Shown here piece by piece: positions 11 through 33,118 of a DNA stretch of 39,933 nt. How positions within the stretch are numbered: the first letter of the stretch is position 1; each line of letters starts with the position of its first letter. The translations under genes and the position numbers were made by a program. The DNA comes from an uncultured Clostridia bacterium (lineage in GTDB: Bacteria; Bacillota; Clostridia; Christensenellales; CAG-1252): positions 1 to 39,933 of the forward strand of contig CALYRM010000010.1 in the NCBI GenBank assembly GCA_945482995.1. The letters run 5' to 3'. The notes beneath the pieces were generated by a model. It saw only the letters and a list, made by a program, of their open reading frames with translations, was not told the origin of the DNA and did not search any database.

Positions 11-78
11 TAGAGATGTCTCCACTGCGGTCGACATGACAATTCGGATGAGATTTCTCGACTGTGCTTGAGAATGAC
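11..78 (+). repeat. Two copies of the covarying hairpin repeat
   Basis: Copy 1 has arms ATGTC (16-20) and GACAT (33-37) around a 12-nt loop. Copy 2 has ATTTCTC (53-59) and GAGAAT (70-75), pairing with one bulged T. Both are preceded by GAG or AGAG and followed by GAC(A/G). Copy 1 is almost identical to the copy at 1431-1452. They belong to the intergenic repeat family described in the findings. Confidence 0.75.
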
Positions 79-1153: not shown

Positions 1154-1470
1154 TTAGGATTCCTCTTTGTTGTATTTAACCGATAAATTTTTGTTTTAAA
1201 TCATATATGTATACTTAAAACGTTATTATTTTATTATGATAACATTAAAAAATTTAAAATACAAACTATTTTTAACATATTTTTAACAATTTTTGCAAAA
1301 ATAGAAAATTTTAATGAAAAATGATAACATATATTAGTTAAACGAAAGCACAAGGCTAATGCCTTGTGCAATGTGAAATTGGTATTCGAGCTTTTTGTAG
1401 GCTCCGCCAAAAGTCTGTGCTAGTATAGAGATGTCTCCACTGCGGTCGACATGACAATATGGACACGCAG
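1154..1470. other. Intergenic region: AT-rich leader plus composite repeat
   Basis: The part next to the hypothetical gene (1154-1345) is extremely AT-rich, with repeated ATGATAACAT (near 1236 and 1322) and two TTTTTAACA motifs near 1270. The rest is a composite repeat in three parts. First is a hairpin GCACAAGGC/GCCTTGTGC (1348-1369) followed by AATGTGAAATTGG. Next is a CCGCCAAAAGTCTGTGCT module. Last is the covarying hairpin ATGTC (1431-1435)/GACAT (1448-1452). The first hairpin, read on the minus strand, is followed by TTTCGTTT and might weakly terminate the 1471-2754 gene. Confidence 0.6.
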
Positions 1471-2841: not shown

Positions 2842-3000
2842 GTTAGTCATTTCGAGCGTAGTCAAAGGATGAGATTCTTCGACTTCGTTACACAACGCTT
2901 GAGAATGACAGTTACTCTATAGGTGAAATGATGAATTCGAATCCGTTACACAACGCTTGAGAATGACAGTTACGCTATGGGTGAAATTATGAATCGGAAT
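2842..3000 (+). repeat. Hairpin repeats with a 58-bp tandem duplication
   Basis: A complete hairpin copy has ATTCT (2874-2878) and AGAAT (2902-2906) around a longer loop that contains CGTT/AACG. Its 3' half and following DNA are duplicated in tandem (2886-2943 and 2944-3000), beginning CGTTACACAACGC, with a few substitutions. A degenerate, oppositely oriented copy precedes it near 2847-2870. The block ends about 40 bp before the DUF2804 gene. Confidence 0.7.
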
Positions 3001-4079: not shown

Positions 4080-4373
4080 TTAGTAGGATAGCGTTGACCA
4101 TTCTACAATGAAATTTGTCATAAATGGCAAGTAAAATCTATTTTGGATGAAATTCTCCTTTCAGTCGAGTTATGGATTTTTTTTGATTTTATCGTATAGT
4201 GCATTGCAAACTTGTTACCTATCAACCCAATCATCCACAATTAGCTTAGCTATTCATTCTAATATTGAATAGATTCTTCGACGTTGCTCAGAATGACATT
4301 ATAGATTTGATTCTTCGACTACGCTTCCAGAATGTCGTTATGGATTGCACATTGTACATTGCATATTGAGCAT
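4080..4373. repeat. Intergenic repeats: decayed mini-hairpin array and two covarying hairpins
   Basis: 4105-4172 is a degenerate copy of the mini-hairpin array seen at 21225-21340. TGAAAT, TAAAAT and TGAAAT fall at 4109, 4132 and 4148, the same 23- and 16-bp steps as there, and the array ends in TTATGGA. Two hairpin repeats follow: ATTCT (4273-4277)/AGAAT (4290-4294) and ATTCT (4310-4314)/AGAAT (4329-4333). Next comes the TGCAATGTGCAAT-type module in reverse orientation (4344-4368). No gene is visible here. Confidence 0.65.
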
Positions 4374-4755: not shown

Positions 4756-5991
4756 TTAATTCTCTCCTACCGTAAATACCACTTCTTTATCTTCGACTGT
4801 CGCAAAGTCCACCATTACTCTTAGCAACCCCGAGGACGGAACGTTTTTATATTGCTTGCAAGTTATCAATTTACCATTATTATGAACTTTTAGCGTCATA
4901 TCCTTCATTTGTTTTGTGGTTTTGAAATAGCAAATTACTCGGTCATGCGTACGAGTTAAATCTATTTTTTGGGGTATTACATATAGGATATTGTCGCCTG
5001 CAATGTTTTCAACTTCGTTTGTTGGGTGATACTTGTATAGCGCAGCATTTTTACCTGCTGTTTCGCCTGTCTCGGAGACATAGTCCGCAAAATCGTTATT
5101 ATGCAAGGCGTTTCCGCACACAAATAAGCCGTCAACGCTTGTCATCATGGTTTGGTCAACCGCAGCGCTCAGTGTCTTTTCGTCAAGAGTCAACCCAAAA
5201 TTCTCGATAAGCCCGATTTCGGGTATTAAGCCAACCGACAAAATCACAGCGTCACACTCTACAATCGTTTTGCTTGCTTCGTCTATTTCACCATTTACAA
5301 CCTTTGCAATCTCTACCGATTCAACTCTGCCACGTCCAATTACCCTAGTTATGGTATGGTTTAGCATTAGCGGAATGTCATAATCATCCAAGCATTTTTT
5401 AACGTTTCGAGTAAGTCCTACTGGAGTTGATTCTTTTTCTAACACACACAACACCTTTGAGCCTTCTATCGTCAATCGTCTTGCCATAATCAAGCCAATA
5501 TCGCCGCTGCCCAAAACTACGCATTTCTTTGTTGGCATTTTACCCAAAACATTTACGTAATACTGGGTTTCGCCCGCTGTAAATATTCCCGACGGTCGAT
5601 CGCCCTGCAAAAAAAATTGCTTTGCAGTACGCTCTCTTGCTCCCGTAGATAAAATAACCGCATTTGCTCTAATAGTGTTTACACCCTTTGAATCAATGTA
5701 TTTTATCACAAAACTTGTGGATTTTTCTATACTCGTCACAAACGCTTTCGTGCGAATTTCAACGCCTAAACGCTCGGAATCTTCTATAAGCTTTTCAAGA
5801 TATTCGGGACCGGTTAGGTTTTCCCTAAACTTAATCAAACCAAAACCTTCGTGTATACACTGTTTGAGTATACCGCCTACATAGTTATCCTTTTCAAGAA
5901 TAAGCACGCTTTTGCCAAGTCGTCTGACTTCTATGGACGCAGACAAACCGCAAACTCCACCACCGATTATAACTACATCAAATTGTTCCAC
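4756..5991 (-). CDS. NAD(P)/FAD-dependent oxidoreductase, GlpB/NADH-oxidase-like
   Basis: The 411-residue flavoprotein has an N-terminal FAD-binding motif, VVIIGGGVCGLSAS, at residues 6-19. The GGILKQCIHEGFG signature at 39-51 is typical of the partner subunit in GlpA-GlpB-DUF1667 operons. A second nucleotide-binding motif, VVLGSGDIGLIMARRL, lies near 160-174 and should bind NAD(P)H. A late CGNALH motif is the usual flavin-contact segment. It probably passes electrons between the dehydrogenase subunit and NAD(P) or quinone; the direction is unknown. The start is a GTG codon at 5991, chosen because AAGGAG lies 8 nt upstream inside the preceding gene. It overlaps that gene by 19 bp, which indicates translational coupling. 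Confidence 0.85.
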   Translation of the reverse strand: MEQFDVVIIGGGVCGLSASIEVRRLGKSVLILEKDNYVGGILKQCIHEGFGLIKFRENLTGPEYLEKLIEDSERLGVEIRTKAFVTSIEKSTSFVIKYIDSKGVNTIRANAVILSTGARERTAKQFFLQGDRPSGIFTAGETQYYVNVLGKMPTKKCVVLGSGDIGLIMARRLTIEGSKVLCVLEKESTPVGLTRNVKKCLDDYDIPLMLNHTITRVIGRGRVESVEIAKVVNGEIDEASKTIVECDAVILSVGLIPEIGLIENFGLTLDEKTLSAAVDQTMMTSVDGLFVCGNALHNNDFADYVSETGETAGKNAALYKYHPTNEVENIAGDNILYVIPQKIDLTRTHDRVICYFKTTKQMKDMTLKVHNNGKLITCKQYKNVPSSGLLRVMVDFATVEDKEVVFTVGEN

Positions 5992-7697
5992 TTGTTATCT
6001 CCTTTTGTGCTTCCGTACACTATCGGGCTGTTTTCGCTCGATTTATTGATGTGTTCAATCGGTATGCCTGTTGTTTTTGATATTATATCAGCAACGATTG
6101 GCGCACAGTGTCCGCCTTGACAACGCCCCATACCTGAGCGCACTCTTCTATTTACGGCGTCAACGGTCGTCGCAGGTATTACCCCTGTCACAGCCTCGAT
6201 TATCTCGCCTTTGCTGACCTCTTCGCAGCCACATACAATGGTACCATAATCGGGATTGTTCTTTATGAACTTCGTGCGTTCTTCGTCGCTCATTTGTTTA
6301 ATCTTAGTAATTCCCTTGCGGTATGGGTTAAAGTTAAAGTTTTCTTTTGCACCGCCAAGCATTTCAATGCTCCACTCGCAAACTTCCTCTGCAATTGCAG
6401 GGGACGCCGTCAAACCGGGCTGTTGCGTTGCACCAATTTCAATAATGTTTTTGGTGAAAAGACCTCTACGAACAACAAAATCTTCTTCGTAGCTGCTCGC
6501 TCTTATTCCCGAAAAATAAGTGATGACGTCTTTTTTCTTGATACTCTCGGAAAGCGTTTTTTGAGCGTCAAACAATTCGTCAACCGTTTTCATATCAGTG
6601 CTATAATCTTCTCTATAAGGAGTTTCTTCATTGGATTGTCCAATCAAGGTATTTCCGTATATCGTATGGAAAACGCCACCGCCACGCGAATGAACCAAAC
6701 TATTATTGTCCTTTTTCAAATAGTCGGACTTGTTCATTGAGGTTGTAACAACCTTATTATTTTTCTTGTCAAGAATAAGTATAGTTCCCTTTCTTGGGTG
6801 AATTGTAAAAGTTCTATCCCCTGCCATTTCGGCGATTTTATCACTAAACACACCCGCAGCGTTGATCACTAATTTTGGATAAACCATTCCCCTATTTGTT
6901 TCTACGCTTTCGATGTGAGCGTCCTTTATAAGCATACCTTCAACTATGGTATTTAACGACAATTCAACGCCGTTATCGACGGCATTTTCAGCAAGCGCTA
7001 GGGTGTATTGATAGGGACAAATTTCGCCGCCCGTTTTTAAATAAAATGCACCTCTATTCCATTTTGGCGCAGTGGGCAACATTTTTAGCAGTTTTCTACG
7101 GCTCAAATATTCGGCTTCTGAATCTAAGGCTTTGGCTTGCACCTTTAGTTTTGGTATTAAGAAACGCTCCCTTGAACTTGAAAATATTATTAGCCTGCCG
7201 GTATGTTTGTAGTCAATGGAAAGTTCCTCGGCAATTCTATCAAACATATCTCTACCTTTTAGGCTGTAGCGATATTTCAATTGATTGGGTTTCAAATCAA
7301 GGTTTACCCTGATGTCGCCGTCGTTTCTTGCAGATTGCCCCAATCCGACGTCGTTTTCTTTGTCAACCATAAGAACGGAGACGTCATATCTTGACAATTC
7401 TCTTGCTACTGCACAGCCTATTGCGCCTGTGCCTATTATCATTACGTCAAAATGCTTGCCGTCAAGGTGAAAATCTCTAAGGCGTGGTTTGTGGTGTTGT
7501 TCAACAAAACCTTTAAGCTGAATATCGTTGATTACGCCTTTGGATTTATCGGTAACTGCCATTTTGCCTATCTTGACGATTTCGTCCCACGTGTCGACCT
7601 CGCCCGACATACGCACACAGCCACAATACTCCTCGACCGTCAGTTCGGGATATAGTTTTTTTATTCTTTTTATTACCGATTGAATTGATTTTCCCAT
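5973..7697 (-). CDS. GlpA/LhgO-like FAD dehydrogenase with N-terminal BON-like and C-terminal BFD [2Fe-2S] domains
   Basis: The 574-residue protein has three parts. Residues 1-65 resemble a BON domain (VRMSGEVDTWDEIVKIG...GVINDIQLKG). Residues 83-470 are a DAO-type FAD oxidoreductase with GTGAIGCAVARELSRY (89-104) and a late GATQQPGLTASPAIAEE motif, as in glycerol-3-phosphate dehydrogenase (GlpA) and L-2-hydroxyglutarate oxidase families. Residues 483-550 are a BFD-like [2Fe-2S] domain with Cys 489, 491, 526 and 531 (CxC...CxxxxC). Likely role: oxidising a 2-hydroxy acid or glycerol-3-phosphate and passing electrons to the next gene's product. No glycerol kinase or facilitator lies nearby, so the substrate is open. 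It is the first gene of the operon, with a consensus promoter 50 bp upstream. Confidence 0.82.
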   Translation of the reverse strand: MGKSIQSVIKRIKKLYPELTVEEYCGCVRMSGEVDTWDEIVKIGKMAVTDKSKGVINDIQLKGFVEQHHKPRLRDFHLDGKHFDVMIIGTGAIGCAVARELSRYDVSVLMVDKENDVGLGQSARNDGDIRVNLDLKPNQLKYRYSLKGRDMFDRIAEELSIDYKHTGRLIIFSSSRERFLIPKLKVQAKALDSEAEYLSRRKLLKMLPTAPKWNRGAFYLKTGGEICPYQYTLALAENAVDNGVELSLNTIVEGMLIKDAHIESVETNRGMVYPKLVINAAGVFSDKIAEMAGDRTFTIHPRKGTILILDKKNNKVVTTSMNKSDYLKKDNNSLVHSRGGGVFHTIYGNTLIGQSNEETPYREDYSTDMKTVDELFDAQKTLSESIKKKDVITYFSGIRASSYEEDFVVRRGLFTKNIIEIGATQQPGLTASPAIAEEVCEWSIEMLGGAKENFNFNPYRKGITKIKQMSDEERTKFIKNNPDYGTIVCGCEEVSKGEIIEAVTGVIPATTVDAVNRRVRSGMGRCQGGHCAPIVADIISKTTGIPIEHINKSSENSPIVYGSTKGDNKWNNLM

Positions 7698-7806: not shown

Positions 7807-8006
7807 ATGTTTTTTTGCGTTTTCACTTGATTTATAATAGTAAAACTATTTATAATATATTATAGTTTGAGTGAATAATACTTAAACATAATGTGCAATG
7901 TACAATTTTGGATATTTTGATTGTGTGGTACGAAAATTACATAATACGTATTTAGTGCTTGTATAAATATTTTTCAAAAAAAAAACGATATAAGGATAAA
8001 GTCAAT

Positions 8007-9047
8007 ATGAATGCAATCGAGGTCAACGTAAAGAATGGATATAAGGTTATTGTTGATAATGGTATTTTCGACAAAATTCCCGAATATGCCCTAACGCTTG
8101 CGGACTATACAACCGTAACAATTGTTTCGGATAGCAATGTCGCGCCACTTTATATTGAAAGATTAAAAAAGGGCTTTTTAAGAGCAAATAAAAGAGTTTT
8201 AACATATGTAATTGAGGCAGGAGAACAAAGCAAAAACCTGTCCAATTATGCAGCCATCCTATCGTTTTTGGCAAACAACGACTTTAAACGTAAAGATTTA
8301 TTGGTAGCCCTAGGCGGTGGTGTAGTCGGCGATCTTACGGGATTTGTGGCAAGCACATATCATAGAGGCGTTGACTTTATTCAAGTTCCAACTACCCTAC
8401 TAGCCGGAATCGACAGTTCAGTTGGGGGCAAAACCGCCGTAGACATTAAAGAAGGTAAAAATTTAGTTGGCGCATTTTATCAGCCTAAAGGGGTATTTTT
8501 CGACATAGAAACGTTAAACACCTTGCCCGAAAAAGAAATGATAAACGGTTTCGGCGAACTTGTGAAATATGGTATTTTAATGGGCGGTACACTTTGGAAA
8601 AACCTACTTTCGGATAACCTATCATTAGAAAACTGTATTGCTGATTCTATTCGCTACAAAGCGGAAATTGTAGAAAAGGACGAATTCGATAATGGCGTTA
8701 GAGCTTTATTGAATTTAGGGCATACCTTAGCCCATTCTGTTGAAAATCTATCGGGTTACACAGTACCGCACGGCTTGGCAGTTGGCTATGGTATAAGAAG
8801 AATTGCAAAAGCTTGTAAGAATAACGGCTTATTGCAAAACTCCGAATACGAACAAATAATCAACGTCCTCGACAAATTTTCCCTTACCTATATAGCACCT
8901 TTTAGCGACAACGCCTTAATACGAGCGAGCGTAAAGGATAAAAAAGCTTTTGCGGATAGCATTAACATAATTGTTATCAACGCAATAGGCAACTGCTCCA
9001 TACAAAAATTTAAGCTCGACAAGTTGGGAGAATTTTTCAATGATTAA
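8007..9047 (+). CDS. aroB: 3-dehydroquinate synthase
   Basis: This enzyme converts DAHP to 3-dehydroquinate, the second step of the shikimate pathway, using NAD+ and a divalent metal. Family motifs are clear: LVALGGGVVGDLTGFVAS, PTTLLAGIDSSVGGKTAVD, GELVKYGIL, and LNLGHTLAHSVE and VPHGLAVGYG, which carry the metal-binding histidines. I chose the ATG at 8007 (346 residues). AAGGA lies about 10 nt upstream, and the homology starts there. An in-frame ATG at 7959 would add 16 Lys-rich residues and has no ribosome site. It is the first gene of a six-gene operon and overlaps aroA by 8 bp. The upstream enzyme, DAHP synthase, is not in the window. Confidence 0.92.
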   Translation: MNAIEVNVKNGYKVIVDNGIFDKIPEYALTLADYTTVTIVSDSNVAPLYIERLKKGFLRANKRVLTYVIEAGEQSKNLSNYAAILSFLANNDFKRKDLLVALGGGVVGDLTGFVASTYHRGVDFIQVPTTLLAGIDSSVGGKTAVDIKEGKNLVGAFYQPKGVFFDIETLNTLPEKEMINGFGELVKYGILMGGTLWKNLLSDNLSLENCIADSIRYKAEIVEKDEFDNGVRALLNLGHTLAHSVENLSGYTVPHGLAVGYGIRRIAKACKNNGLLQNSEYEQIINVLDKFSLTYIAPFSDNALIRASVKDKKAFADSINIIVINAIGNCSIQKFKLDKLGEFFND

Positions 9048-10284
9048 GGTTAGTATGGCCGAGCTTTCGGGAATTATTGACGCCATCCCCTCAAAATCAT
9101 ATGCACATAGAGCGTTGATTTTAGCGGCGCTATGTAACAGTAGCACAACGCTTTTTGGTAAATCGACAGGCGTTGACACCGACGCTACCGTTGGCGTATT
9201 GTCGGCGCTCGGCGCAAATATTCAATCGACTGATTTTGGCTACGTTGTCGAGCCTATAAAAAATTTGAACAATAATATATCTCTCAACGTCAAAGAAAGT
9301 GGAAGTACGTTGAGATTTATCTTGCCCTTGTTATCGGTTTTGGGCATAAGTTGCCATATTGACGGCGAAGGAAGATTGAAAAATCGACCGAATAAGGAAT
9401 TGATTGAAACCCTTTCTATGGCAGGAACGAGTTTCGATAATACCACCTTACCTATTAATATGTCGGGAAAGTTTTCGGCTAAAAGTGTAGCCGTTCGAGC
9501 AGATATAAGCTCGCAATTCGTGTCGGGTTTACTTATGGCAATGCAACTTTTGCCCTATTCCTCAGATATTCACTTGATTGGTGAATTAAAGAGCAAAAAC
9601 TACGTCGATATCACAATTTCGGTTATGGAAGCCTTTGGTGCAAAGGTCACTAAAACCACATACGGATATAGTCTTTGTGGCGGTGGCTATACATCACCCC
9701 AAAAATACACCATTGAGGGCGATTGGTCCAACTCGGCGTTTTGGTTGGTTGCAGGCGCCATTGGAAAGGGTATTACAGTAAACAATTTGAATATAAATTC
9801 TATTCAAGGCGATAGAGAGATAGTTGATATTCTAAAAAAAGCAAATGCTGCGATAACTATTAGCGAAAATTCAGTAAAAGTCGAAAAATCCGATTTGATC
9901 GCTTTTGAATGTGACGCCGAGAATATACCCGACCTAGTGCCTATTCTTTCGGTGTTAGCGTCCTTTGCAAACGGTGAAAGCCTATTGACATCGGTAGAAA
10001 GGTTAAGGTTCAAGGAAAGCGATAGGATTCAAACCACGCTCGATATGCTTTTATCCGCTAACGTAAACGCTTTTTACGACGAATTGGGGATTCATATTAT
10101 AGGCTCGACGCATAAAGCAAACACGATACAAGGCGCTAACGACCATAGAATTGTTATGAGCGGTTGCATTATGGCGACAAATACCGAGGGCGTTACAACT
10201 ATTACCGATGAAAATGCGGTTAATAAGAGTTATCAAGCCTTTTATGAGGATTTTTGTAAATTAGGAGGTATTATTAATGCCTAA
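9040..10284 (+). CDS. aroA: 3-phosphoshikimate 1-carboxyvinyltransferase (EPSP synthase)
   Basis: This enzyme joins phosphoenolpyruvate to shikimate-3-phosphate. At 414 residues it is of normal length. Expected motifs are present: SKSYAHRALILAA (residues 18-30), SGSTLRFILPLLS in place of the enterobacterial GNAGT motif, ISSQFVSGLLMA for shikimate-phosphate binding, RLRFKESDR, and DHRIVMSG near the end. The SGSTLRF form is typical of Firmicutes enzymes. The start is preceded by GGGAG within the aroB end. It overlaps aroB by 8 bp and aroC by 8 bp, so the three are probably translationally coupled. Confidence 0.93.
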   Translation: MIKVSMAELSGIIDAIPSKSYAHRALILAALCNSSTTLFGKSTGVDTDATVGVLSALGANIQSTDFGYVVEPIKNLNNNISLNVKESGSTLRFILPLLSVLGISCHIDGEGRLKNRPNKELIETLSMAGTSFDNTTLPINMSGKFSAKSVAVRADISSQFVSGLLMAMQLLPYSSDIHLIGELKSKNYVDITISVMEAFGAKVTKTTYGYSLCGGGYTSPQKYTIEGDWSNSAFWLVAGAIGKGITVNNLNINSIQGDREIVDILKKANAAITISENSVKVEKSDLIAFECDAENIPDLVPILSVLASFANGESLLTSVERLRFKESDRIQTTLDMLLSANVNAFYDELGIHIIGSTHKANTIQGANDHRIVMSGCIMATNTEGVTTITDENAVNKSYQAFYEDFCKLGGIINA

Positions 10285-11377
10285 GTACGGAAACAAAATC
10301 ACAATGGACGTTTATGGAGAGTCTCACGGCGAATGCGTCGGCGTTGTAATTTCGGGACTTCCATTGGGAATAAAAATAGATTTGGACAGTTTGCAAGCTC
10401 ACACCAACAGACGAAAAGCAACAAACTCGAGCTATTCGACAAAGCGTATCGAACCTGACAAAATTGTTATTAAGGACGGTTTATCCGAAAACGGCACTGT
10501 TGAAAAAGACAAAATCGAATTGATAGTCTACAATACCGCCTACCGAAAAAACGATTACAGCAATTTAAGTTTCACTCCCAGACCATCGCACGCCGATTAC
10601 CCTGCAATGGTAAAGTATGGCGATAAAGTAAGTTTGTCGGGCGGTGGCAAGTATTCGGGAAGACTCACCCTTCCTATTTGCATTGCAGGCGGTATAGCCG
10701 AACAAATTCTAACGCAAAAAGGTATTTTTATATGCTCATATTTGAGCGAAGTTGCAGGAATAAAGGGTGCAAGTTACAAAGATAAAATCCCCACTATTCA
10801 AGAATTATCAAATGCCAAGGCTAATCCATTTTACTTTTTCAAAGACAATATTGAAGCCGTAGAAAAACGCTTTGAAAAAGCAAGGCTAAGTAGAGATAGC
10901 TTGGGCGGAATAATAGAAACGGTGATATACGGCTTACCCGTAGGCGTTGGCGACAGCTTGTTTGACGGCGTTGAAAGCGCCATTTCCAGCGCAGTGTTCG
11001 CTATTCCGGCAGTCAAGGGCGTTGAATTTGGTATCGGCTTTGATTTTGCACTACTAAAAGGAAGTACTGCAAACGACTGCTATTATTACGACAATGGAAT
11101 GGTTAAAACCTATACAAACAACAACGGCGGTATTGTCGGCGGTATGACAAACGGTATGCCTATCACATTGAGAACGGTTGTTAAACCAACTCCAAGCATT
11201 GGTATCGAACAAAAAACCGTTGACCTTAGAACTAAAACAAATACCACTATTACGATTAACGGCAGACATGACGTTTGCATTGCGCCAAGAGCGGCTGCAC
11301 CTATCGAATCGGCGGTTGCTTTCGCGCTTCTAGATATTATTATGCAAGAAGACGCTAAGGGGGATACTAATGAGTAA
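10277..11377 (+). CDS. aroC: Chorismate synthase (divergent)
   Basis: This enzyme converts EPSP to chorismate with reduced FMN. The 366-residue length is normal. The two catalytic histidines are retained, in GESHG (residues 13-17) and RPSHAD. The C-terminal GRHDVCIAPRA block matches the family's GRHDPC...RA. The protein is divergent elsewhere. The usual RRPG segment reads RRKATNSSYSTKR. The usual SG..xGxTTGxPI stretch is replaced by DGLSENGTVEKDKIEL. SxRET reads SGRLT. Context between aroA and pheA leaves little doubt about the role. GGAGG lies 8 nt before the ATG, and both ends overlap neighbours by 8 bp. Confidence 0.9.
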   Translation: MPKYGNKITMDVYGESHGECVGVVISGLPLGIKIDLDSLQAHTNRRKATNSSYSTKRIEPDKIVIKDGLSENGTVEKDKIELIVYNTAYRKNDYSNLSFTPRPSHADYPAMVKYGDKVSLSGGGKYSGRLTLPICIAGGIAEQILTQKGIFICSYLSEVAGIKGASYKDKIPTIQELSNAKANPFYFFKDNIEAVEKRFEKARLSRDSLGGIIETVIYGLPVGVGDSLFDGVESAISSAVFAIPAVKGVEFGIGFDFALLKGSTANDCYYYDNGMVKTYTNNNGGIVGGMTNGMPITLRTVVKPTPSIGIEQKTVDLRTKTNTTITINGRHDVCIAPRAAAPIESAVAFALLDIIMQEDAKGDTNE

Positions 11378-12509
11378 GCTTGATGAATATAGAAACAAAA
11401 TAGACGTTATCGATGATCAAATCACAACTCTATATAAGCAAAGAATGGATTTGGTTAGACAAGTTGTCGAAGCAAAAAAAGAAAATAACGTCCCCACGTT
11501 GGTGCCTGATAGAGAAAGAAGCATTATTAACAGAGTAACGAAAAAAGTTGACGAGCCTTTGAAAATCTATACGAAAAGGTTGTTTGAAACCATTTTTGAA
11601 ACAAGTAAATCCTATCAAACTAAATTTTCAAATAATGATGGCGTTGTAAGATTATTTTTAAATGATTTAGTAAATCAACCACGTTCTTATTTGCCAACCT
11701 CTGCCTCTGTAGTATGTCAAGGAGTAATGGGGAGTTACAGCTCGATAGCGTGCGAAAAAATATTTCCTATTTCGGATATTTCGTATGTAAAAACCTTTGA
11801 AAACGTTTTTGAAGCAGTGGAAAGTGGTCAATCGGAATTTGGAATCTTGCCAATCGAAAACAGCACAGCAGGATCGGTTAATGCCGTATACGACTTAATC
11901 AAAAAGCATAAAGCCTATATAGTCGCAAGCACCACAATAAGCATTAGACACTGTTTGCTTGGAAATGTGGGTGCAACGAAAGACAGTATTACCGAAATCT
12001 ATTCGCATGAACAAGCGATTAGTCAATGCTCGGAATACTTAAAACAATTCACTAACGCCAAAATTATTCCTGTCGCAAATACTGCGGTAGCCGCAAAATC
12101 GGTTGCCACGAGCACAAGAATAGACGTTGCTTCCATTTCGTCAAAAGAGTGCAGTTCGCTCTATGGTTTACACATTATCGACGGCGATATTGCCGACAAT
12201 TCCAACAATTATACGCGCTTTATTTGCATTTCAAAAAAGCCTGTTGTATACGCTAACAGCACGAAAATCAGCCTTATGGCAAACCTTCCCGACGAAGCCG
12301 GTAGCTTATGCAAAGTGTTAAATAGATTCTATGCAGAAGGTATCAACTTGACAAAATTGGAATCCCGTCCGCTCACTAATTCGGTATTTGATTTTGTGTT
12401 CTACTTCGACATTCAAGCCGATATCCACAAGAAAGAGGTTATCGATTTACTTGTAGAATTGTCAAACAGCTATAACTTTACCTTTTTAGGTTCATATATG
12501 GAGATTTAA
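11370..12509 (+). CDS. pheA: Bifunctional chorismate mutase/prephenate dehydratase (P-protein)
   Basis: Residues 1-80 form an AroQ-type chorismate mutase helix bundle (LDEYRNKIDVIDDQITTLYKQRMDLV...VPDRERSII). Residues about 112-285 form prephenate dehydratase (GVMGSYSSIACEKIF, GILPIENSTAGSV, SHEQAISQC, and NYTRF with the catalytic TRF). Residues about 295-379 form an ACT domain (LMANLPDEAGSLCKVL, LTKLESRP). The ACT domain is the usual phenylalanine feedback site in P-proteins. The product makes phenylpyruvate, committing the operon to phenylalanine; no TyrA is present. GGGGG precedes the ATG by 6 nt. The stop overlaps the next start by one base (TAATG). Confidence 0.93.
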   Translation: MSKLDEYRNKIDVIDDQITTLYKQRMDLVRQVVEAKKENNVPTLVPDRERSIINRVTKKVDEPLKIYTKRLFETIFETSKSYQTKFSNNDGVVRLFLNDLVNQPRSYLPTSASVVCQGVMGSYSSIACEKIFPISDISYVKTFENVFEAVESGQSEFGILPIENSTAGSVNAVYDLIKKHKAYIVASTTISIRHCLLGNVGATKDSITEIYSHEQAISQCSEYLKQFTNAKIIPVANTAVAAKSVATSTRIDVASISSKECSSLYGLHIIDGDIADNSNNYTRFICISKKPVVYANSTKISLMANLPDEAGSLCKVLNRFYAEGINLTKLESRPLTNSVFDFVFYFDIQADIHKKEVIDLLVELSNSYNFTFLGSYMEI

Positions 12510-13732
12510 TGAAAGCGTGCTTATTAGGTAAAAAATTAGGACATAGCTACTCGCCCTACATTCATTCACAATTCGGCTATTCATATCAAAACGTGGAGCT
12601 TGACGAAAACGAATTGGAAAACTTTTTGAAAAACAGCGAATTCGACTGCTTTAACGTAACCGTACCCTACAAAAAATCGGTTATGCCCTATCTTAAGCTT
12701 TCCGACCTTGCTAAAAAAATCGGCGCAGTAAACACCGTTGTGAAACGTGACAACGTTTTGTTTGGTTATAATACCGATTATTACGGCTTTCAAAAAATGA
12801 TTGAAGGAAACGGAATAAACGTTGCAAACAAAAAGGTTCTTATTCTTGGAACGGGTGGCGCGAGCGCAGTCGTAAAAACGTATATGACCGATTTTGGCGC
12901 TAACGTTCGAGTTGTAGGAAGAACAAGCGAATACAACTACAATAATCTATATCTTAATTACGACGCCGAAATTATTATAAACACCACCCCCGTGGGTATG
13001 TATCCCGACAATTTGGTTGCACCATTGGATTTATCCCCTTTCAAACACTTAGTGTTCGTGGGCGATTTGATTTATAATCCATACAAAACCGCACTACTTC
13101 TTCAAGCAACCGATTTGGGAATAAAAAACGATAACGGTTTGAGTATGCTTGTTTGGCAAGCTATCAGGGCAGGCTACTTTTTTACAGGCGTCGATTATTC
13201 GGATAAGTACAATAAAATCTATTCAGAATTGTCGCTAAAGGCTAGAAATATAATTCTTATCGGTATGCCGTCATCGGGGAAAAGCACGATTGGAAGACAT
13301 TTGGCTAAGGCACTAGAGAGAAATTTCATTGACCTTGACAAAGAGATAGTAAGGAAAGTTGGCAAGCCTATTCCTGAAATTTTCGAGCAAAACGGTGAAA
13401 AATATTTTAGAAAAGTTGAAAGCGAGCTTTTGTTTGAATTTTCTAAGCTTAGTAATAAGGTAATCGCCTTAGGCGGTGGCGCTTGTATTCAAGAAACAGC
13501 AAAATGGCAGATTAAACAAAATTCGATTGTTGTTTACCTTACAAGAAATAAGATTTCAACTAAGGGTAGACCACTATTACAAAAAGACGGTATAAACGCA
13601 TATAATAAATTGCTAGAAATTAGAGAGCCTATATATAATTCACTCTTTGATATAAAAGTCGAAAATAACAGTTCAATTCAAGCGGTTGTAAACACAATCA
13701 TAGGAGCATTAAATGAAAGTAATGGTAATTAA
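12509..13732 (+). CDS. aroE-aroK: Fused shikimate dehydrogenase-shikimate kinase
   Basis: This single 407-residue reading frame has two enzymes. Residues 1-242 are shikimate dehydrogenase (GHSYSP at 11-16, NVTVPYKK with the catalytic Lys at 49-56, NTD at 88-90, NADP motif LGTGGAS at 113-119, NTTPVGMYP). Residues 247-407 are shikimate kinase (Walker A GMPSSGKST at 252-260, DLD at 275-277, GGGA at 322-325, GRPLL lid Arg at 353-357). The linker is only a few residues. Together they convert 3-dehydroshikimate to shikimate-3-phosphate. No stop codon or frameshift separates the halves. GGAG lies 5 nt before the ATG. The end overlaps aroQ by 20 bp. Confidence 0.93.
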   Translation: MKACLLGKKLGHSYSPYIHSQFGYSYQNVELDENELENFLKNSEFDCFNVTVPYKKSVMPYLKLSDLAKKIGAVNTVVKRDNVLFGYNTDYYGFQKMIEGNGINVANKKVLILGTGGASAVVKTYMTDFGANVRVVGRTSEYNYNNLYLNYDAEIIINTTPVGMYPDNLVAPLDLSPFKHLVFVGDLIYNPYKTALLLQATDLGIKNDNGLSMLVWQAIRAGYFFTGVDYSDKYNKIYSELSLKARNIILIGMPSSGKSTIGRHLAKALERNFIDLDKEIVRKVGKPIPEIFEQNGEKYFRKVESELLFEFSKLSNKVIALGGGACIQETAKWQIKQNSIVVYLTRNKISTKGRPLLQKDGINAYNKLLEIREPIYNSLFDIKVENNSSIQAVVNTIIGALNESNGN

Positions 13733-14150
13733 TGGCGTCAATCTTAATATGTTGGGTATAAGAGAAAAAGACCTTTACGGAGCAAGAGACTTCGCAACAC
13801 TTAAAGCATTTATCAAGGAAGCTGCCGAAGAGTTAGATATCGAAGTTGAACTTTATCAAAGCAATCATGAGGGCGATATCGTAGATAAAATTCAAGCCTG
13901 CTACTTTGATGATGTTGACGGTATCGTTATAAACGCAGGTGCGTATACGCACACAAGTATTGCTATACTTGACGCATTAAAGGCGGTTAGTATTCCAACC
14001 GTTGAAGTACATATAACTGATATAAGTTCAAGAGAAGACTTTAGAAAGATAAGCTATATTTCGCTCTATGCCGAAAAAATGATTAAGGGCAAAGGATTTG
14101 ACGGCTACAAAGAAGCCCTTATGTATTTGAAAGGAAAGTACGGAAAATAA
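13713..14150 (+). CDS. aroQ: Type II 3-dehydroquinate dehydratase
   Basis: This enzyme dehydrates 3-dehydroquinate to 3-dehydroshikimate. The 145-residue length is that of the type II (dodecameric) family. Visible motifs are GVNLNMLGIREKDLYG with the catalytic Tyr, YQSNHEGDIVDKI (family NSNxEGxxxD), INAGAYTHTSIAI (family NPGAYTHTS), and VEVHITDISSREDFR with the conserved His. It is the last gene of the operon and completes the set from DAHP to chorismate and prephenate. It starts inside the aroE-aroK end, with AGGAG 7 nt upstream. The terminator at 14247-14271 follows. Confidence 0.93.
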   Translation: MKVMVINGVNLNMLGIREKDLYGARDFATLKAFIKEAAEELDIEVELYQSNHEGDIVDKIQACYFDDVDGIVINAGAYTHTSIAILDALKAVSIPTVEVHITDISSREDFRKISYISLYAEKMIKGKGFDGYKEALMYLKGKYGK

Positions 14151-14460: not shown

Positions 14461-14719
14461 TTAGATTTCTCGACTTCGCTCGGATTAACAATATGGCATG
14501 AACGTCTATCCGTATGCTTCGCAAAGAGTCTGTGCTTGTAGTGAGATCCCTCGACTACGCTCGGGATGACGATATGGCATAAATGTCTATCCGTGTGCTT
14601 CGCAAAGAGTCGGTGCTTATATAGAGATTTCTCGACTTCGCTCGAAATGACATAATATGGATATTCATTTGATATGAGATTCTTCGACTTCGCTCAGAAT
14701 GACAATATTGCTGGCTCGA
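14461..14719 (+). repeat. Cluster of covarying hairpin repeats with an 81-bp tandem pair
   Basis: Two tandem units (14491-14571 and 14572-14652) share a TCTATCCGT(A/G)TGCTTCGC segment, then AAAGAGTC and a terminal hairpin. The hairpin arms differ: ATCCC (14546-14550)/GGGAT (14563-14567) in the first, ATTTC (14627-14631)/GAAAT (14644-14648) in the second. Another copy has ATTCT (14679-14683)/AGAAT (14696-14700). A decayed copy begins at 14463 and an orphan 3' half lies near 14710-14722. No gene is visible between 14151 and 14831. Confidence 0.8.
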
Positions 14720-32828: not shown

Positions 32829-33118
32829 ATGTGCAATTAGTTTACGACTGCTCATGTGTTTTGCAAAGAGGCTGTAATAAGACAGGGGTTTCTCGACTTC
32901 GCTCGACATGACGATTAACAAGGATTAGATCCTCACGACTTCGCTACGCAACGCTTGAGGATGACATTTTTATGAGATCCTTACGACTTCACTCCGTTCC
33001 GCTCAGGATGACAATGCGGATGAGGTTCTTCGACGTTGTTCAGTATGACAATTTGGGTTATTCAGTATGACAATTCGGATTGTTTCAGTATGACAATTTG
33101 GATTGTTTTGGATGACAA
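32829..33118 (+). repeat. Composite repeat and hairpin-repeat cluster between greA and the lipoprotein gene
   Basis: The order is a TGTGCAATTAG module, TTTACGACTG and TTTTGCAAAGAG, then a decayed hairpin (32889-32911). Intact copies follow: ATCCTCA (32929-32935)/TGAGGAT (32956-32962) and ATCCT (32977-32981)/AGGAT (33005-33009). A further decayed copy ends in TTCAGTATGACAATT, whose 3' part is then repeated in tandem at 33039, 33061 and 33084 (22-23-bp steps). No gene is visible. Confidence 0.75.

Follow-up and report, generated by a model that had tools for sequence, protein, structure and literature searches.

Between the genes of the window, by which we mean the whole 39,933-nucleotide stretch of DNA from an uncultured Clostridia bacterium analysed here, lie short hairpins whose two arms change from copy to copy and yet remain complementary, and the question is what keeps them matched. 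Our preferred answer, at a probability of roughly 0.5, is that the repeat belongs with the CGTC-tagged REPs, in a variant layout, as a palindromic DNA element that is not autonomous and that an enzyme acting in trans would copy in the form of a folded single strand. The genome to which the window belongs (G000) is a 94% complete draft whose 163 contigs add up to 2.12 Mb; it encodes a SpoIIE-like protein, and its host is probably a sporulating member of the Bacillota.

Copies of the repeat and covariation of their arms

Read from its tag, the unit has the layout TGTC-AT NNY-GA-S-C-GNA-G-T-S'-GA-R NN AT-CTC, in which the tag may also be CGTC (YGTC in general). A pattern that left the arms and both S bases free (the strict form) found 170 copies in the genome and none in the control. 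Of 99 hairpins of this genome in another set, sought by tag and arms, 85 had a 5-bp stem around a 12-nt centre. TGTC or CGTC forms the foot of the hairpin in the window copies and in the genome matches, and most copies anchored on the loop end in GACA or GACG on the opposite strand (below, the reading strand), although that search demanded no tag. Arm position 5 is A-T in 55 and position 4 is T-A in 69 of 77 loop-anchored copies, and the 3-nt tail is CTC in 56 and CTA in 27 of 87.

The arms that a sequence-only reading of the window had listed, at 16, 1431, 2874, 4273, 4310, 14546, 14627, 14679, 29697, 32929 and 32977, are all present (Table 1), but the single centre it had placed between them is not shared: only four places in the window (14470, 14632, 14684 and 32893) have TCGACTTCGCTC exactly and one more has it with one mismatch, and most of the listed copies have other centres, namely TCCACTGCGGTC (16 and 1431), TCGACGTTGCTC (4273), TCGACTACGCTC (14546) or longer ones (2874, 4310, 32929 and 32977). 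There are also mispaired copies that it had passed over, at 14465, at 32888 and near 33024, the last with arms GTTCT/AGTAT. At 33040-33115 there is a run of three to four approximate copies of TTCAGTATGACAATTCGGATTG, each comprising the right half only, with arm 2 and the tag and no matching arm 1; these look like decayed units. Directly upstream of the repeat cluster lies a run of co-directional genes (7959-14150) that includes EPSP synthase, a shikimate kinase fused to the N-terminal domain of shikimate dehydrogenase, and dehydroquinase II. No Rfam family matches the repeat in the window, where a Gut-1 RNA elsewhere (RF01706, 21248-21317, plus strand, 52.2 bits against a cut-off of 50) alone passes.

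Table 1. Repeat units and composite repeats in the window
Feature	Coordinates	Strand	Remarks
Hairpin unit TGTC ATGTC GACCGCAGTGGA GACAT	16..41	-	Inner pair C-G, not G-C
Hairpin unit TGTC ATGTC GACCGCAGTGGA GACAT	1431..1456	-	
Unit with arms ATTCT/AGAAT, longer centre	2874..2910	-	By inspection
Hairpin unit TGTC ATTCT GAGCAACGTCGA AGAAT	4273..4298	-	
Unit with arms ATTCT/AGAAT, centre of 14 nt, degenerate tag	4310..4337	-	By inspection
Mispaired unit, reading-strand arms ATTTC/GGATT, AACA at the tag position	14465..14490	-	3/5 pairs
Composite repeat of ~97 bp, backbone plus copy A hairpin	14474..14570	.	Many sites in G000, ~83-95% identity
Two 81-bp tandem units, 14491-14571 and 14572-14652	14491..14652	.	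Identity 68/81
Hairpin unit, copy A of the 81-bp pair, CGTC ATCCC GAGCGTAGTCGA GGGAT	14546..14571	-	Separate genome-wide subfamily
Hairpin unit, copy B of the 81-bp pair, TGTC ATTTC GAGCGAAGTCGA GAAAT	14627..14652	-	5/5 arm pairs
Hairpin unit TGTC ATTCT GAGCGAAGTCGA AGAAT	14679..14704	-	
Perfect 11-bp stem ATTCGTAAGTC / GACTTACGAAT, 8-nt loop	29697..29730	-	GACA tag present, GA..GA centre absent; by inspection
Mispaired unit GTTTC/GACAT around TCGACTTCGCTC	32888..32913	-	
Unit with 7-bp stem ATCCTCA/TGAGGAT, long centre	32929..32966	-	By inspection
Unit with arms ATCCT/AGGAT, long centre	32977..33013	-	By inspection

The claim that the arms covary was confirmed, far above chance, in this genome, in a sister species and in other phyla. 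The 44 copies of TCGACTTCGCTC in the genome (24 on one strand and 20 on the other; none in the reversed control) were anchored on the centre only, which leaves both arms free; 190 of their 220 arm cells are Watson-Crick pairs, against 140.6 +/- 5.8 (maximum 164) in 10,000 shuffles that permuted arm 2 among copies. With centre variants added, 341 of 385 cells are paired (shuffle 249, maximum 270), and a shift of arm 2 by one, two or three bases leaves at most 124 of 385 paired. When all 741 column pairs are ordered by APC-corrected mutual information, the first three places go to the three inner arm pairs, in G000, in the sister species, in other phyla and in the combined set alike; stem positions 4 and 5, the AT beside the tag, hardly vary and carry little information on covariation. 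A pattern with free arms paired at 211 of 222 cells among the 74 G000 matches listed (shuffle 127). In the sister species (G004; the set includes three copies of G007) 171 of 185 cells are paired (shuffle 144.5, maximum 164), and its stems are mainly ATGTT/AACAT around the same centre, so that two species of one genus do not have the same set of stems. G007, a related species, has its own spacer and stem type, with tandem ATCCT/AGGAT units 46 bp apart (L242, C10:1-2000). Across phyla, with arm 1 unanchored, the two variable positions pair in 161 of 170 cases (shuffle 86, maximum 109). Paired, variable arms around a near-constant centre are thus a robust property of the repeat.

The tandem 81-bp pair had been put forward as the clearest case of compensatory change. 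Its arms do differ and still pair, but the hairpin block differs at four arm bases and also in the centre (TAC/TTC), as do the last base and 7 upstream bases, and copy A with its upstream sequence matches many sites in the genome at about 83-95%, in a subfamily whose stem is mostly GTCCC/GGGAT. Because of these further differences the pair does not represent two clean compensatory mutations and, judged by its sequence relatives, is better seen as members of two different subfamilies side by side. A single upstream backbone is combined with several centres and with the stems ATCCC, GTCCC, ATTTC and ATGTC, which are paired in nearly all cases.

Such covariation could be inherited, if a few matched stem types had each arisen once and then spread by duplication and ectopic recombination, with neither selection nor an enzyme at work today. 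All 32 pairs of neighbouring units in the genome are head to tail and none head to head, large composite repeats recur there, and several mispaired copies resemble chimeras or single mutants of established types, all of which such a history would produce. The same pairs, however, covary elsewhere with other stem types and centres, and among the matches listed the stem type and the inner pair of the centre (S-S') assort rather freely; we find this explanation improbable as a whole, although simple tandem duplication, given the head-to-tail neighbours, may be part of the spread in this genome.

The structured centre and a proposed working strand

The region between the arms, first taken as a plain loop, is structured, with G·A mismatches, a covarying pair and a GNA triloop. 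The GA..GA centre is present in 278 of 311 hairpins sought by tag and arms alone and in none of the reversed-sequence controls, a proportion that is partly biased by the fetching of most loci with a word containing GA..GA; among Flavobacterium loci fetched by gene order it is present in 24 of 26. Two tandem G·A mismatches beside the stem and a bulged T are kept in most copies. A fourth variable pair covaries within the apparent loop, since S and S' pair as G-C or as C-G: among the 74 G000 matches listed, 46 are G-C, 27 are C-G and 1 is mismatched (shuffle mean 39.5, maximum 53), and in the same 74 the middle base of GNA is T in 29, A in 28, C in 16 and G in 1. In all 125 matches listed, the tag strand has a pyrimidine at the innermost position of the stem. 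One Flavobacterium genome (G146) carries 178 copies of a shorter form, TGTCATNNNGASGAASGANNNAT, and among the 100 matches listed the arms pair at 297 of 300 cells and the inner pair in 100 of 100 (C-G 53, G-C 47).

The sequence-only reading had set a selected hairpin against arm-templated repair, in which template switching in a replicating hairpin copies the mutations of one arm into the other without any function. Repair of this kind would explain covariation without selection, and it fits a single backbone that carries many combinations of stem type and centre. It should also, however, have erased features that most copies keep, the bulged T and the pair of G-A mismatches; nor would it account for the invariable pyrimidine at the innermost position, where any pair would do, and it would have to operate on arms of just 5 bp while mismatched chimeras such as ATTTC/GACAT persist. 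Since the conserved mismatches should have been removed, we regard repair as quite unlikely to be the main cause, and the part of the earlier alternative that is supported is a single strand that forms a hairpin. Two half-sites of a dimer that binds duplex DNA were ruled out as a description of the arms, as the half-sites vary yet stay complementary.

A polarity can be proposed for this single strand, in which the working form would be one folded DNA strand, the one that starts with 5'-TGTC or 5'-CGTC. It would consist of a 5-bp stem (AT and three free pairs), the two G-A mismatches, one or two further pairs with the bulged T, and the GNA triloop; GNA loops on G-C stems are known as extraordinarily stable DNA mini-hairpins (PMC4686876). 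A candidate enzyme, which like those of REP and IS200 ends would probably be HUH-like, would act in trans on the single-stranded hairpin; it would recognise the tag at the 5' end together with the mismatches and the apex, and tolerate any stem sequence that pairs. Whole hairpins would be the units that spread or that replace other copies, and those whose arms no longer match would stop spreading, which in this proposal is the reason for the covariation. The predicted stability of the hairpins counts against the folded-DNA-strand model: nearest-neighbour DNA folding gives single hairpins only -1.1 to -3.0 kcal/mol, no better than shuffles, with parameters that may not credit tandem G-A mismatches or GNA loops.

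Genomic context, spread and the search for a mobiliser

The units are mostly intergenic (in G000, 6 of 79 lie inside ORFs of at least 90 aa), and gaps between co-directional or convergent genes hold them more often than divergent gaps. This placement would suit an RNA function, in which the hairpin is transcribed, for instance as a stabiliser or processing site at mRNA 3' ends, and its arms stay paired through selection on the RNA. Transcription has been favoured for REPs by Di Nocera et al. (PMC3733652), and mismatches at arm position 5 are mostly G·T on the reading strand (63 against 3); the same mismatches are C-A on the tag strand and so are the one point against the polarity proposed above, and the bias seems to come largely from a few expanded subfamilies. 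The units show no orientation preference, however, with 60 lying with transcription and 69 against it in co-directional gaps (simple ORF calls), and at arm positions 1-4 G·T (G-U in an RNA) is not in excess over C·A on the reading strand (28 and 35, p = 0.45), which leaves both strands without a sign of G·U tolerance there; these two observations favour the folded-DNA-strand model. RNA fold energies are likewise no better than those of shuffles, the GNA apex is a mini-hairpin of DNA type, and the strong patchiness between congeners is ill suited to a housekeeping role; an RNA function is in our judgement unlikely. Replication-strand bias by local GC skew, a weak test, was not significant in G000 (p = 0.14) or G004 (p = 1).

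Many units sit at contig or locus ends, with 34 of the 79 lacking a flanking gene on one side (for example on contigs C15, C35, C50, C60 and C106), which suggests that the repeats break the assembly and that the copy number may be underestimated. At four sites (C11:36551, C18:26169, C60:10945 and C72:1839; L017, L020, L035 and L036) an upstream palindrome, GACAGC-RGR-GCTGTC, is followed by AATTCACC, and the units joined to it have CACCC or CACCT as arm 1 and are mispaired.

One intergenic site allowed orthologous positions to be compared. With L071:3200-5600 as the query, 109 of 121 Flavobacterium genomes gave some match, and many species have a head-to-head dimer of ~100 bp with a similar spacer at this site. 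The terminal hairpins differ, among them TCATCCTGAGCGAAGTCGAAGGA, TCATTCTGAGGAACGAAGAAT, TCATTTCGACGAAGGAGAAAT and TCATTCCGAGGAACGAGGAAT; some species have remnants or nothing, and in L255 two stem types are joined in one chimeric right end. Among the G146 matches listed, the two ends are identical in 25 dimers and different in 5, and because each hairpin of the latter still pairs within itself, the pairing constraint is local to the hairpin. To judge from these alignments, whole hairpins appear to have been exchanged at the site, by recombination or insertion. No case of a clean insertion alongside an empty site came to light, which counts against the folded-DNA-strand model; the Flavobacterium species that lack the element have diverged too far for boundaries to be drawn, and synteny with the congeners of G000 is likewise too diverged for a comparison with empty sites.

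The strict repeat is rare and patchy, with species-specific expansions: four congeners (G001, G002, G003 and G005) have 0, 1, 0 and 0 strict copies against 170 in G000, and none was found in 248 other sampled genomes of the phylum. At least 119 stretches of GTDB genomes nonetheless contain a 21-base word, TCGACTTCGCTCRGRATGACA, and they come from at least 13 phyla, namely Patescibacteria, Bacteroidota, Eremiobacterota, Verrucomicrobiota, Planctomycetota, Chloroflexota, Bacillota, Pseudomonadota, Acidobacteriota, Armatimonadota, Fibrobacterota, Spirochaetota and Ignavibacteriota, where the phylum names are taken from record titles and many of the records are metagenome bins, so that single cases may be misbinned, although isolates are included. 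Dimers in other phyla are head to head in 26 cases, head to tail in 9 and tail to tail in 2. Phages are an unlikely vehicle: among 2.9 million viral contigs only 23 stretches contain the form with the 12-nt centre.

A RAYT/Y1 transposase, for which the sequence-only reading had proposed a search as a check, did not emerge. The genome has no match to the RAYT model NF047646 at E 0.001, in an assembly that is 94% complete, and its only Y1 gene is a plain IS200-type TnpA (144.6 bits with NF033573, and 26 bits with the RAYT model against a cut-off of 80) with no such hairpin in the 7 kb around it; that no mobiliser was found here also weighs against the folded-DNA-strand model. This tnpA lies at L043 3608-4072 (contig C31; NCBIfam), and within 2 kb of it an ORF at 5671-6261 is likely, from our reading of its sequence, a serine recombinase.

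The repeat could still be part of a classical REP system whose driver is a RAYT encoded by these genomes or close to them; it shares the geometry of such systems (5' tetranucleotide, imperfect hairpin and strand polarity), and a RAYT-like match at E 0.001 is present in 36 of the 49 genomes searched, which were mostly repeat-bearing. But RAYTs are missing not only from G000 but also from G084 and G077, with 39 and 16 copies of the repeat, and 123 of 249 genomes of the phylum have RAYT-like genes, none of them together with the strict repeat. The flanks of some 45 RAYT-like genes were inspected, and on this basis linkage was rejected: the repeat is absent from them apart from two cases, one unit more than 1 kb away in L184 and a CGTC-1-like hairpin ~0.9 kb from a Chloroflexi gene. 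In other repeat-bearing genomes the RAYT genes mostly have their own, unrelated inverted repeats nearby. A RAYT-driven system is thus largely refuted and, to our mind, highly improbable.

Comparison with known systems

A literature search for the literal repeat sequences gave no match, and the sequence-only reading had known of similar repeats with no described function. A close kind has in fact been described, the CGTC-tagged REP superfamily, which includes Neisseria dRS3 and Rickettsia RPE-4 and RPE-6 (Di Nocera, De Gregorio and Rocco, 2013; PMC3733652); that part of the statement which concerns function stands, as neither a function nor a mobiliser has become known for these REPs since their description.

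The end hairpins of IS200/IS605 elements are, like the repeat, short single-stranded hairpins with a 5' guide tetranucleotide, but the repeat has no adjacent tnpA, and the sole IS200-type gene of the genome has no such hairpin nearby. With GTAG REPs and REPINs, the partners of TnpA_REP, it has in common strand polarity, dimers, occurrence as populations of similar copies, and an imperfect hairpin with a 5' tetranucleotide at its foot; it differs in its YGTC tag, in the lack of a RAYT in G000 and in the lack of linkage between RAYT genes and the repeat. The substrates of TnpA_REP are recognized by a 5' tetranucleotide and irregular hairpin features on one strand of ssDNA (PMC8266576), and the repeat resembles them in tetranucleotide, irregular hairpin and strand specificity.

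The CGTC-tagged REPs come closest. They have an unpaired CGTC (or TGTC or CCTC) tag at one end, a stem of 8-9 bp that starts with complementary AT, a loop of 4-5 nt and a 3-nt tail that mostly fits CCA; head-to-head dimers predominate, head-to-tail ones are negligible, and no transposase genes are associated with them (PMC3733652). The unpaired tag, the AT at the start of the stem, complementary changes between copies, a short unpaired tail, the mostly intergenic location and the lack of an associated transposase are common to both, as are head-to-head dimers in most other repeat-bearing genomes, though not in G000, where the order is head to tail. In contrast, the stem here is 5 bp around a structured GA..GA centre of 9-12 nt, the tail is mostly CTC or CTA, and many of the phyla are absent from the published list. 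Since tag, AT start, compensatory stem changes, 3-nt tail, the dimers of other genomes and the lack of a transposase match while stem and loop lengths and tail sequence do not, the repeat is, as far as sequence and layout can tell, a new variant of the CGTC-tagged REP kind and not a plain member. The independence of CGTC repeats from transposase genes reported by Di Nocera et al. (PMC3733652) is repeated and widened here.

The structured apex extends the likeness. In CGTCATTCCCGC-NNNN-GCGGGAAT repeats, which we take to be of dRS3 type, the 4-nt loop was left free and 188 of 197 loops begin with GNA (the contigs are redundant), so that a GNA apex is common to our repeat and to the CGTC kind. 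We tentatively suggest, as an idea that is more doubtful than the variant itself, that all CGTC-type repeats (dRS3, RPE and the GA..GA form) may share YGTC, a covarying stem and a C-GNA apex and may be copied by one widespread enzyme acting on ssDNA hairpins, not a linked RAYT; this, if true, would explain why the same 21-base word is met in at least 13 phyla.

For annotation, the element accounts for an intergenic word often met in metagenome assemblies and for the frequent contig breaks that fall on it in G000. The single-strand signature (tag, G·A mismatches, free stem and GNA apex) predicts which mutations should matter and offers a direct substrate with which to find the protein that reads it, and it links repeats that had seemed separate, those of Neisseria (dRS3), of gut Clostridia and of Flavobacterium.
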